From Prevotella sp. (GTDB lineage Bacteria; Bacteroidota; Bacteroidia; Bacteroidales; Bacteroidaceae): 64,000 nt of DNA. The stretch is taken from NCBI GenBank assembly GCA_017428055.1, contig JAFRRN010000067.1, positions 1 to 64,000 of the forward strand, written 5' to 3'. Under the pieces are notes generated by a model. It did no database searches, was not told the DNA's origin, and saw only the letters and a program-made list of their open reading frames with translations. This document shows positions 57,215 to 61,559 of this stretch, in pieces (the first letter of the stretch is position 1; each line of letters begins with the position of its first letter). A program made the translations under genes and the position numbers.

Positions 57215-58138
57215 ATGTGGTTAATCAATTCATCGATTGGTAGAAAAGTCGTGATGTCGGTTACCGGCATCGCGCTAATCCTGTTCTTGACGTTCCATTG
57301 CTGCATGAACGTCGTGGCACTTTTCTCAGGTGAAGCCTACAACATGATTTGCGAATTGCTCGGTGCCAACTGGTATGCCGTGGCGGCAACGCTCGGCCTG
57401 GCGGCACTGGCAGTGATCCACATCGTGTATGCCTTCATCCTGACCGCTCAAAACCGCCGCGCCCGTGGCGTCTCGCGCTATGAGGTGACGGCCAAGCCCG
57501 ATAAGGTGGAGTGGGCTTCACAGAACATGCTCGTGTTGGGCATCATCATCCTGCTCGGCTTGCTGCTCCACTTGTTCAACTTCTGGTACAACATGATGTT
57601 TGCCGAGTTGTTCCCATCCATCCACTCCGACCCAGCTCCCGCTGACGGTTTCGGAAAGATAGTGACGACTTTCAGCAACCCCATCTACGTCGTGCTGTAT
57701 GTAATCTGGATTGTGGCAATATGGTTCCACCTCTCTCATGGATTCTGGAGTGCCATACAGACATTCGGCTGGAATGGCAAGACGTGGTTCTGTCGTTGGA
57801 AAGCGATAGGAATGGTCTATGTCACGCTTCTCATGCTGGGCTTCCTCTTCGTTGTTTTGGCATTCGCCTTCAAGTGCGCCCCGAGCCTCTGCAAGGCCGA
57901 CTGCTGCAAGGCAAAGACGGAATGCGTGATGCCGACTCCATGCGAAAAGGCTTCGGCAAAGACCTGTGACATGATGGAAAAATGCCAATGCGAGGATTGC
58001 AAGTGCGACCCCTGTCAATGTGGCGAGGAGAAAAGCTGCAAATGCACTGACTGCAAGTGCGACCCCTGCAAATGTGCTGAGAAAGAAGGCTGTGCCTGTG
58101 CCTGCGCCCCCTGCCAATGCGAGGACTGCAAGTGCTAA
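57215..58138 (+). CDS. frdC: Fumarate reductase/succinate dehydrogenase cytochrome b subunit with cysteine-rich tail
   Basis: This is the diheme membrane anchor of menaquinol:fumarate reductase. Five transmembrane helices (about 11-37, 53-78, 103-128, 154-178, 196-219) carry the heme-ligand histidines His28, His69, His119 and His172. After helix 5 the usual protein ends near 220-230; here about 87 extra residues contain 26 cysteines, mostly as C-x-C and C-x2-C (CEDCKCDPCQC, CTDCKCDPCKC, CACACAPCQCEDCKC). This looks like a metallothionein. The basic loops 79-100 and 181-197 suggest the tail is periplasmic. The tail is encoded by imperfect DNA repeats. The heme domain is certain; the tail's role is unknown. 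Confidence 0.93.
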   Translation: MWLINSSIGRKVVMSVTGIALILFLTFHCCMNVVALFSGEAYNMICELLGANWYAVAATLGLAALAVIHIVYAFILTAQNRRARGVSRYEVTAKPDKVEWASQNMLVLGIIILLGLLLHLFNFWYNMMFAELFPSIHSDPAPADGFGKIVTTFSNPIYVVLYVIWIVAIWFHLSHGFWSAIQTFGWNGKTWFCRWKAIGMVYVTLLMLGFLFVVLAFAFKCAPSLCKADCCKAKTECVMPTPCEKASAKTCDMMEKCQCEDCKCDPCQCGEEKSCKCTDCKCDPCKCAEKEGCACACAPCQCEDCKC

Positions 58139-58182: not shown

Positions 58183-60165
58183 ATGGCTAAAGTATTAGAT
58201 TCAAAAATACCTGAGGGACCAGTAGCAGAGAAGTGGAAAGAGTATAAGGCTCACCAACGTCTGGTTAATCCCAAGAATAAACTGAAACTCGATGTCATCG
58301 TGGTAGGAACGGGTTTGGCTGGTGCCTCCGCCGCCGCCTCATTGGCAGAGATGGGTTTCAATGTGTATAACTTCTGCATCCAAGACTCGCCACGCCGCGC
58401 ACACTCCATTGCCGCACAGGGTGGTATCAATGCCGCTAAGTGCTACCAGAACGATGGCGACTCGGTTTATCGCCTATTTTACGACACCGTGAAAGGTGGT
58501 GACTATCGTGCCCGTGAGGCTAACGTTTATCGTTTGGCAGAGGTGTCTAACAATATCATCGACCAATGCGTGGCACAGGGTGTTCCCTTCGCACGTGAAT
58601 ATGGCGGCATGTTGGCAAACCGTTCTTTCGGTGGCGCACAGGTGAGCCGTACATTCTATGCAAAGGGACAGACGGGTCAGCAACTCCTATTGGGTGCTTA
58701 CAGTTCATTGAGCCGTCAGGTGGAAGAGGGCAAGGTGAAACTCTTCACCCGCTACGAGATGGAAGACATTGTTATTGTCAATGGTCGGGCGCGTGGAATC
58801 ATCGCCAAGGACTTGACAACGGGTAAATTGGAGCGTTTCAGTGCTAACGCCGTCGTGATCGCAACGGGTGGTTACGGAAACACATACTTCCTCTCTACAA
58901 ACGCTATGGGTTGCAACTGTACCGCTGCCGTCCAGTGCTACCGTAAGGGTGCTTACTTTGCAAATCCATCCTACGTGCAGATTCACCCCACATGTATTCC
59001 CGTACATGGCGACAAGCAGTCGAAGTTGACGTTGATGTCGGAGTCTTTGCGTAACGACGGTCGTATCTGGGTTCCCAAGAAGATTGAAGACGCAAAGGCT
59101 TTACAAGCTGGTACAAAGCAAGGATGGGAGATTCCTGAGGAGGATCGCGACTATTATTTGGAACGTCGTTATCCTGCATTCGGTAACTTGGTGCCTCGCG
59201 ACGTGGCAAGCCGTGCCGCCAAGGAGCGTTGCGACCACGGCTTTGGCGTGAATAACACGGGCTTGGCTGTGTTCCTCGACTTCTCGGAGAGTATCAACCG
59301 CCTCGGCATCGACCAGATTATGCAACGCTATGGCAACCTCTTCGAGATGTATGAGGAGATTACCGACGTTTTCCCAGGAGAGCTTGCCAATGAAATCAAT
59401 GGCGTGAAGTATTACAAGCCGATGATGATCTTCCCCGCCGTTCACTATACGATGGGCGGTATCTGGGTTGACTATGAGTTGCAGACCACCATCCCCGGCC
59501 TCTTCGCCATCGGTGAGTGTAACTTCTCCGACCACGGAGCCAACCGCCTCGGCGCTTCCGCACTGATGCAAGGATTGGCAGACGGCTACTTCGTGTTGCC
59601 TTACACCATCCAGAACTATCTTGCCGACCAGGAGATTTGGCCGCATCTCTCTACCGACCTGCCAGAGTTTGACGCAGCGGAGAAGGCTGTGAATGCCGAA
59701 ATCGACCGCCTGATGAACATCAAGGGCAAGCGTAGCGTTGACTCCATCCATAAGGAACTCGGCCACATCATGTGGGAGTATGTTGGCATGGGACGTACGA
59801 AGGCCGGCCTTGAGAAAGGCTTGAAACTGATGAGAGAACTGCGTAAGGAGTTCGACAGCAACCTTTTCGTGCCTGGTACGAAAGAGGGTCTGAACATAGA
59901 ACTCGACAAGGCCATCCACCTACGCGACTTCATCCTCATGGGTGAGTTGGTTGCCAATGATGCCCTCCACCGCGAGGAAAGCTGCGGCGGACACTTCCGC
60001 GAGGAGCACCAGACGGAGGAAGGCGAGGCCAAGCGTAACGACAAGGACTTCTTCTATGTAGGATGCTGGGAGTACCAGGGCGATGACACCAAAGCTCCCG
60101 AACTCATCAAGGAGCCATTGGAATATGAGGCAATAAAGGTACAAACACGTAATTATAAGAATTAA
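58183..60165 (+). CDS. frdA: Fumarate reductase/succinate dehydrogenase flavoprotein subunit
   Basis: This catalytic subunit interconverts fumarate and succinate on the cytoplasmic face. The Rossmann motif is [15 protein letters not shown] (about 40-54). The covalent FAD site is [10 protein letters not shown] (His73). The substrate region shows [13 protein letters not shown] and [20 protein letters not shown]. The C-terminal domain with [11 protein letters not shown] is conserved. The length, 660 aa, matches the epsilonproteobacterial/Bacteroides QFR type. It lies 44 bp after frdC and 2 bp before frdB. Confidence 0.96.
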
Positions 60166-60167
60166 TC

Positions 60168-60926
60168 ATGGCAAAGAATATATCATTCACACTGAAGTAT
60201 TGGAAACAGAACGGTCCTAAGGACACTGGCCATTTCGATACACATGAAATGAAGAATATTCCTGACGACACCTCGTTCTTGGAAATGCTTGACATCTTGA
60301 ATGAAGAGCTGATCAACGAGGGACAGGAACCATTCGTATTCGACCACGACTGCCGCGAGGGTATCTGCGGTATGTGCTCTCTATATATCAATGGTACACC
60401 ACATGGGAAGACAGAGCGTGGCGCAACGACCTGCCAACTCTACATCCGCCGCTTCAACGATGGCGACGTGATTACCGTGGAGCCGTGGCGTAGTGCTGCC
60501 TTCCCCGTGATTAAGGACTGTATGGTTGACCGTGGCGCATTCGACAAGATTATCCAAGCTGGCGGTTACACATCTGTTCGTACAGGACAAGCACAAGATG
60601 CCAACGCCATCCTGATTCCCAAGGAGAATGCCGACGAGGCAATGGACTGCGCAACGTGCATCGGTTGTGGTGCTTGCGTGGCGGCATGTAAGAATGGCTC
60701 TGCCATGCTCTTCGTCAGTTCCAAGGTATCACAACTCGCCCTTCTCCCGCAAGGCCGCCCAGAGGCTGCACGCCGTGCCAAGGCAATGGTGATGCGTATG
60801 GAAGAGCTTGGCTTTGGTAACTGCACCAACACCCGCGCTTGCGAGGCCGTTTGTCCGAAGAACGAAAGCATCGCTAATATCGCCCGCCTGAACCGCGAGT
60901 TCATCAAGGCAAAGTTGGCTGACTAA
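60168..60926 (+). CDS. frdB: Fumarate reductase/succinate dehydrogenase iron-sulfur subunit
   Basis: This 252-aa electron-transfer subunit links the hemes of FrdC to the flavin of FrdA. The [2Fe-2S] ligands are in [13 protein letters not shown] (Cys62, 67, 70) with Cys89 in GATTC. The second domain has [17 protein letters not shown] ([4Fe-4S] and shared ligands) and [14 protein letters not shown]. The gene order C-A-B and 2-bp gap to frdA are standard. A hairpin terminator follows. Confidence 0.96.
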
Positions 60927-60985: not shown

Positions 60986-61204
60986 ATGAAACAGACCAAC
61001 GAATACATCAATCTCATAAAAGCTCACTCCGATGAAATCCGCACTCAATTCGGAGTACGTACATTGCGCCTTTTTGGTTCAGTCTCCCGTGGTGAGCAGC
61101 ATGAAGGTAGCGATGTCGATGTCATTAGGATGCATAAGCACATACGCCCCTACCTACTTCAAAACATTGAACATGATGGAATTTACGTCATTGGAGAAGC
61201 GTAA
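60986..61204 (+). CDS. MntA-type minimal nucleotidyltransferase antitoxin with internal deletion
   Basis: This 72-aa protein belongs to the MNT family that, with HepT, forms a toxin-antitoxin pair in which MntA AMPylates HepT. The signature GSX10DXD is intact (Gly31-Ser32, Asp43, Asp45 in GSVSRGEQHEGSDVDV). Family members run about 95-100 aa, and here GSDVDV is joined directly to IRMHKHIRPYLLQNI, a segment normally ~25-30 residues further on after a second VDV. The region between, carrying the third acidic strand, is missing. Deletion between the two VDV-coding stretches would explain it. The 3' end overlaps hepT by 32 bp. Confidence 0.75.
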   Translation: MKQTNEYINLIKAHSDEIRTQFGVRTLRLFGSVSRGEQHEGSDVDVIRMHKHIRPYLLQNIEHDGIYVIGEA

Positions 61205-61559
61205 CCGAATCAAATATACGCTTGAGCAAATCAATACTGCGATAGGTCAGTTGAAGGATTGGAATGAGGATGTAGTGAATGCAGACGACTACTATCTTTC
61301 GTCCTTGGGAATGCAGAAACTGGCTGCTAATTGTATGCTCATAAAGACTATCGGAGAAGGCATTAAACAGATTGACGAACATTCTAACGGAGAGCTACTG
61401 CCAAAACGTCCAGATATTCCATGGAAGGACATTATCGGCATGAGAAACCGTGTCGCCCATGGCTATTTCGAAGTTGACGCAGAAATGGTTCTCAACACTA
61501 TCAAAAACGACCTTGACTCCCTGCAATCTGCCATAAAATACTTCCTTGATATAATTTAG
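61173..61559 (+). CDS. HepT-like HEPN-domain (DUF86) toxin
   Basis: This 128-aa HEPN ribonuclease partners the MntA-like gene upstream. The catalytic RX4HXY motif is complete: Arg91, His96 and Tyr98 in MRNRVAHGYFEVD, and Tyr98 is the residue AMPylated by MntA in characterised systems. The start is ATG 61173 or 61176, both within the end of mntA, giving the usual overlapping TA arrangement. The frame extends upstream to 61032 but only as a shadow of mntA. The toxin appears intact while the antitoxin is deleted. Confidence 0.82.
   Translation: MMEFTSLEKRNRIKYTLEQINTAIGQLKDWNEDVVNADDYYLSSLGMQKLAANCMLIKTIGEGIKQIDEHSNGELLPKRPDIPWKDIIGMRNRVAHGYFEVDAEMVLNTIKNDLDSLQSAIKYFLDII

Follow-up and report, generated by a model that had tools for sequence, protein, structure and literature searches.

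The membrane anchor of a Prevotella quinol:fumarate reductase (QFR) ends in a cysteine-rich tail, and the conservation pattern of related tails indicates that this tail is under selection and that the cysteines themselves are the selected feature. The gene lies in a window of 64,000 nucleotides (the whole stretch of DNA that was analysed: Prevotella sp., assembly GCA_017428055.1, contig JAFRRN010000067.1, positions 1 to 64,000 of the forward strand). With moderate confidence, we propose that the tail of FrdC acts as a membrane-anchored, periplasmic, metallothionein-like metal buffer.

The frdC gene and its C-terminal tail

The frdC gene (window positions 57215..58138, + strand) is an open reading frame of 307 codons plus a stop, and encodes the cytochrome b subunit of a type-B QFR with the C-terminal tail. 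Residues 6-220 score 223.6 bits against the NCBIfam model TIGR02046 (succinate dehydrogenase/fumarate reductase cytochrome b subunit, b558 family), whose cut-off is 96, while the Pfam model Sdh_cyt scores 19.2, below its cut-off of 25.8. Directly 3' of frdC lie frdA (58183..60165, +), which encodes the flavoprotein subunit of 660 amino acids (FAD_binding_2 and Succ_DH_flav_C domains), and frdB (60168..60926, +), which encodes the iron-sulfur subunit of 252 amino acids (Fer2_3 and Fer4_7 domains), and this is the operon arrangement of a type-B QFR. The haem histidines H28, H69, H119, and H172 are invariant in 14 aligned sequences and, taken with the five helices, provide the predicted sequence features of a type-B anchor for two b haems. 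The Glu and His positions have the same numbering as in Prevotella bryantii, for whose FrdC a section of PMC10739449 gives H28 and H119 as the ligands of the distal haem.

The window also contains, at 60986-61559 (+), a 72-residue nucleotidyltransferase ORF that matches only positions 2-37 of the 93 of its Pfam domain and overlaps a HepT-like ORF. This arrangement resembles an MNT/HEPN toxin-antitoxin pair that has been shortened.

The membrane core of FrdC comprises residues 1-220 (57215..57874, +). An AlphaFold2 model, computed with 14 aligned FrdC sequences (mean pLDDT 67.5), predicts five long transmembrane helices at residues 7-37, 51-83, 95-132, 156-184, and 190-218, and shows no confident structure for residues 228-307. 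A Foldseek search with this model returned complex II anchors at the top, with 9lay_C of Chloroflexus at E 2.6e-5, followed by the FrdC of Wolinella with E values of 0.09 or weaker. Averaged over 123 unique cores, the N-terminus contains 2.05 K+R and 0 D+E, followed by 0.21 and 1.84 in loop 1, 5.37 and 2.95 in loop 2, 0.67 and 3.33 in loop 3, and 3.10 and 0.08 in loop 4. Under the positive-inside rule, this alternation points to a cytoplasmic N-terminus and a periplasmic C-terminus, and the loop charges, the odd number of helices, and homology together suggest that the tail is probably periplasmic, in agreement with the initial annotation of this DNA.

The tail itself (residues 221-307; 57875..58135, +; stop codon at 58136-58138) begins where the TIGR02046 match ends. 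The earlier count of 26 cysteines in about 87 residues, in C-x-C and C-x2-C arrays, proved right to the residue upon translation: ten C-x-C, six C-x2-C, and one C-C are present, together with 13 Lys and 16 Asp+Glu, but no His and no aromatic residue. This cysteine share of 30% is far above chance, since the membrane cores of the 123 unique FrdC sequences hold 1.8%. The C-x-C-x2-C-x-C-x2-C-x-C array occurs first at 57983..58021 (+), as CQCEDCKCDPCQC, in a copy that only some tails possess, and the terminal module follows at 58037..58135 (+), containing 12 conserved cysteines (13 in the window). Internal repeats in the coding sequence, likewise noted previously, were found as a 54-nt (18-aa) unit present twice (72% alike) and a four-copy family of 34 nt (65-100% alike); Tandem Repeats Finder reports a short CTGTGC array only.

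Profile searches at E 1 (in which the HMMER filters drop most weak matches) produced no match for the window tail among the families of Pfam and NCBIfam, including those of the metallothioneins. Pfam at E 10 produced none for 11 tails, whether to metallothioneins or to ferredoxin-type iron-sulfur domains, and PDB sequences gave no match for the window tail at E 10. A cytochrome c or ferredoxin tail was rejected, as no profile matched and as none of the 21 long tails (at least 48 aa) contains the haem-binding motif CxxCH. An internal start that would yield a free small metallothionein is not general, as Met-Met precedes the first repeat in only five of 19 aligned tails (L001, L031, L032, L033, and L036).

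Selection on the cysteines

The long-tail alignment contains 19 sequences with tails of at least 50 aa, duplicates having been removed; L161 came later, and L049, whose tail of 48 aa is cut by a contig end, falls outside this set. Selection was assessed on 16 of the 19, with L002 and L119 (which have no terminal module) and the truncated L135 being dropped, and L043, which is cut by a contig end, being kept. In the terminal module of these related tails, none of the 12 cysteine columns varies (190 of 190 cells agree), whereas 18 of the 19 other columns do, leaving one invariant (Fisher p 9e-8). The conserved cysteine columns of the 19-sequence alignment are encoded by 141 TGC and 56 TGT codons. 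In the 16 sequences, pS and pN measured 0.640 and 0.130 for the core, 0.774 and 0.203 for the whole tail, and 0.857 and 0.115 for the terminal module. The corresponding pN/pS of 0.203 for the core is thus slightly exceeded by that of the whole tail (0.262), while that of the terminal module (0.135) lies below it, these ratios being obtained with synonymous sites close to saturation, an alignment that leans on the cysteines, and related sequences. A frameshift artefact without a conserved cysteine register in relatives, which had been named at the outset as a finding that would overturn the interpretation, is rejected together with a wrong reading frame: the cysteines are invariant while synonymous sites have turned over, and the register holds in all 16 sequences.

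Tail series, distribution and history

The initial annotation had proposed a comparison of C-terminal cysteine content and length among FrdC homologues, and had expected the length to vary. Across 123 unique FrdC sequences (one of which, L030, belongs to another family), the tails indeed span 6 to 107 aa; at least one cysteine occurs in 119 of them, at least two in 109, at least three in 97, and at least ten in 21. The cysteine share is 28% in tails of up to 17 residues (68 sequences), 25% in those of 18-47 (34 sequences), and 27% in those of at least 48 (21 sequences). Short cysteine-rich ends (CAPSLCC) past residue 220 are common among the sequences of the genus that were fetched, and tails of middle length contain units such as ADCCKEAA. 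The long tails follow several designs, with C-x-C-x2-C-x-C in 18 sequences, CDKAHADC units in two (L002 and L119), and ECCKPGA-like units in one (L161, the FrdC of genome G230, with 22 cysteines in 81 residues). Going by these several cysteine-rich designs with a similar cysteine share, it is as if the number of cysteines rather than one fold were favoured. Because short cysteine-rich ends are common in the genus, the window tail is, as judged from these sequences, the extreme of a genus-level trait. The claim that it extends beyond the usual end of the family therefore holds against TIGR02046, which ends at residue 220, and against 19 FrdC proteins of other families in the order, which end 0-10 residues past that position, but not within the genus. 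Only one of these 19 (L211 of G058, ending SLCCSGCCPA) has more than one cysteine in its last 15 residues.

FrdC is present in 51 of 60 related genomes and in 337 of the 398 genomes drawn from the genus. One congener that is 99% complete (G009) is without any FrdC match. A profile built from 11 tails, which finds only tails like its members and misses other designs in genomes from which no FrdC was fetched, matches 17 of the 398 genomes: 14 in FrdC with C-x-C-x2-C-x-C arrays (the genome of the window included), two (G019 and G387) in FrdC whose similarity is limited to the beginning of the tail, and one (G230) in a gene other than frdC. No second tail-like gene was found in these 17 genomes at E 1. 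In a survey of the order with a single tail sequence (295 genomes, 184 genera), only the window's own genome matched, and the same was true of a phylum survey with the tail profile (395 genomes, 170 genera; none of the 394 others). The long C-x-C tail is rare, being present in the FrdC of 14 of the 337 FrdC-bearing congeners among the 398 genomes, and this is a fairer figure than the share among the loci, some of which were picked by similarity to a tail-containing query, a choice that inflates the share of long tails. Since most congeners lack it, the long tail is dispensable for respiration, and it is an accessory that lies outside catalysis.

Prevotella is prominent in the rumen. Among 80 loci, a query-biased set, 15 are long-tailed; the rumen or a ruminant appears in six of their titles, and a further four belong to RUG assemblies, which are of rumen origin. 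The ten loci whose titles suggest a cultured strain have tails no longer than 11 aa. The bacterium of the window is a probable inhabitant of the rumen or gut.

On a quick tree of the FrdC core and FrdA (123 sequences, 879 columns; 36 of 120 inner branches below 80 support), the C-x-C tail undergoes 11 changes, at least eight of which are forced by starred branches. Constraint to one clade is rejected for the 18 C-x-C sequences (p-AU 1e-57) and for all 21 long tails (p-AU 1e-6), which rules out that the tail arose once and was then inherited strictly vertically without ever being lost. Tail and core distances nevertheless correlate (Mantel r 0.57 for nucleotides, 0.49 for amino acids), and shortened forms stand beside full ones in both starred groups (L135 by L048; L002 and L119 by L043). 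An old tail with repeated loss, and perhaps some exchange between lineages, would fit these observations. Decayed tails behind the stop codon of tail-less relatives were sought at 16 loci, including 12 whose tails are of short or middle length, and no cysteine-rich remnant was present before frdA; the median gap between frdC and frdA is similar in all classes, at 39.5 nt for short, 41 nt for middle, and 45 nt for long tails (159 loci, duplicates kept).

The match outside frdC lies in a G230 gene (L155:1-1575, +) for a protein with kinase and MORN repeat domains (Pfam), between which visual inspection places a single membrane helix. This protein ends in SACPSACKCKECKCDPCKCAPIDD, a C-x-C array of seven cysteines; the FrdC of the same genome bears the ECCKPGA tail. 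Because the DNA aligns ungapped with the frdC tail of L038 over 98 nt (75.5% identical), and because this similarity runs past the kinase stop codon, the end of L155 appears to be a shortened version of the frdC tail module. Of 30 loci fetched from a search of 100 genomes, in which that part of the protein served as the query, only that of G230 ends in a cysteine array; the remaining 29, many of them other MORN-like proteins, have 0 or 1 cysteine within their last 30 residues.

Proposed function and comparison with known systems

Judging by composition, cysteine spacing, and analogy, metal binding and buffering would be the most likely role of the tail. In the mechanism that we propose, a metallothionein-like chain is fused behind the fifth transmembrane helix of FrdC and faces the periplasm, where the thiols of its C-x-C and C-x2-C motifs would bind several thiophilic ions (Zn2+ or Cu+). 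The bound ions would be buffered on the periplasmic surface of the inner membrane, near the menaquinol site and the distal haem, and the respiratory complex would serve as the anchor of the buffering tail. We consider this the best explanation because the cysteine register is fixed, the positions between the cysteines are free to change, and several cysteine-rich designs exist. The setting appears to be compatible with free thiols: among 31 genomes of the genus (the 17 matched by the tail profile and 14 picked, mostly well assembled), DsbB was found in none (control: six of 14 named genomes), VKOR above its cut-off in one (G161, outside the 17; control: three of 14), with a further weak match below the cut-off in G003, and DsbD_TM in 30. 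These counts suggest that periplasmic thiols are not actively oxidised, and the thiols of the tail may consequently stay reduced. The initial annotation is partly supported: the appendage is real, yet the short cysteine-rich ends of congeners, the patchiness of the long form, and the selection on the cysteines went unmentioned, and no evidence was found here for the metal sensing, haem protection, or electron-carrier tethering that it had envisaged.

The same counts bear on a tail with a thiol/disulfide redox role, in which electrons would pass between the cysteines and the haems or menaquinone site of FrdC, so that fumarate could oxidise periplasmic thiols, or in which oxidants would be scavenged; this we regard as decidedly unlikely. 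Redox pairs are single CxxC motifs, unlike the dense C-x-C arrays seen here, and the 13 cysteines of one module far exceed what a relay would need. The scarcity of DsbB and VKOR might create a need for another thiol oxidant, and homology with the protein described in part of PMC10739449 places the root of the tail at the membrane side that holds the distal haem and the quinol site; however, most congeners have no long tail, and DsbD_TM points to reduction and away from oxidation.

Weak selection on a low-complexity tail that expands and contracts through slippage of its repeats, with no function of its own, would account for the internal repeats, the patchy presence with its 11 changes on the tree, and the truncated forms beside full ones. 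This explanation is already disfavoured, and we hold it to be quite improbable: every cysteine cell of the module is kept despite synonymous turnover, and the pN/pS of the module falls under that of the core. A tethering or assembly role, in which the tail would contact another protein of the periplasm or membrane, for instance the NQR complex, draws on the supercomplex of NQR and QFR in P. bryantii, as presented in part of PMC8516057. It is nonetheless very improbable, as 18 of the 19 non-cysteine columns vary, leaving no sign of a specific protein surface, and as tail length differs so widely. Finally, insertion of a mobile module, of DNA or of protein-coding sequence, at the 3' ends of genes, most often that of frdC, is highly implausible despite the alignment past the kinase stop codon in G230, given that frdC is the only site found in 16 of the 17 matching genomes, that selection acts at the amino acid level, and that tail and core distances correlate.

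Returning to the metal buffer, a wider version of it is tentative and rather unlikely as a whole, namely that Prevotella uses the periplasmic end of FrdC as an evolvable metal store: short CAPSLCC-like ends would lengthen through duplication of repeats until they form full metallothionein modules. Lineages would gain, lose, and pass on these modules, in one case to a transmembrane kinase, and quinol oxidation would in this way be coupled to the supply of metal at the surface of the membrane. If the tail does bind metal, complex II of an anaerobe would here carry a metallothionein that is anchored in the membrane and faces the periplasm, and that keeps a large number of metal-binding thiols on the outer side of the inner membrane. 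Metal handling would then be linked to fumarate respiration, by which Prevotella forms succinate. As the tails of relatives naturally range from 6 to 107 residues, the influence of length lends itself to direct testing. Within the open-licence full texts searched, no description of a cysteine-rich tail on FrdC or SdhC was found, and we know of no described counterpart.

The window FrdC shares its five helices, its haem histidines, and the frdCAB order with type-B menaquinol:fumarate reductases (TIGR02046; the QFR of Wolinella succinogenes and P. bryantii), whereas the 87-residue cysteine-rich tail past the end of the family model is its own feature. Metallothioneins are small cysteine-rich proteins with C-x-C and C-x2-C motifs. 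The window tail has in common with them its 30% cysteine, its C-x-C and C-x2-C spacing, and its lack of aromatic residues, and differs in being fused in frame to the integral membrane protein FrdC and probably periplasmic, rather than a free-standing small protein. The plant pump HMA4 has, as sections of PMC6255694 describe, a cysteine-rich C-terminal extension that binds Zn2+ with nanomolar affinity via di-Cys motifs. Both this extension and the FrdC tail are cysteine-rich C-terminal extensions of membrane proteins, and di-Cys also occurs in other Prevotella FrdC tails; HMA4, however, pumps metal and contains 13 di-Cys motifs together with a stretch of His, while the window protein has C-x-C arrays on a respiratory enzyme, and no relationship between the two is claimed.
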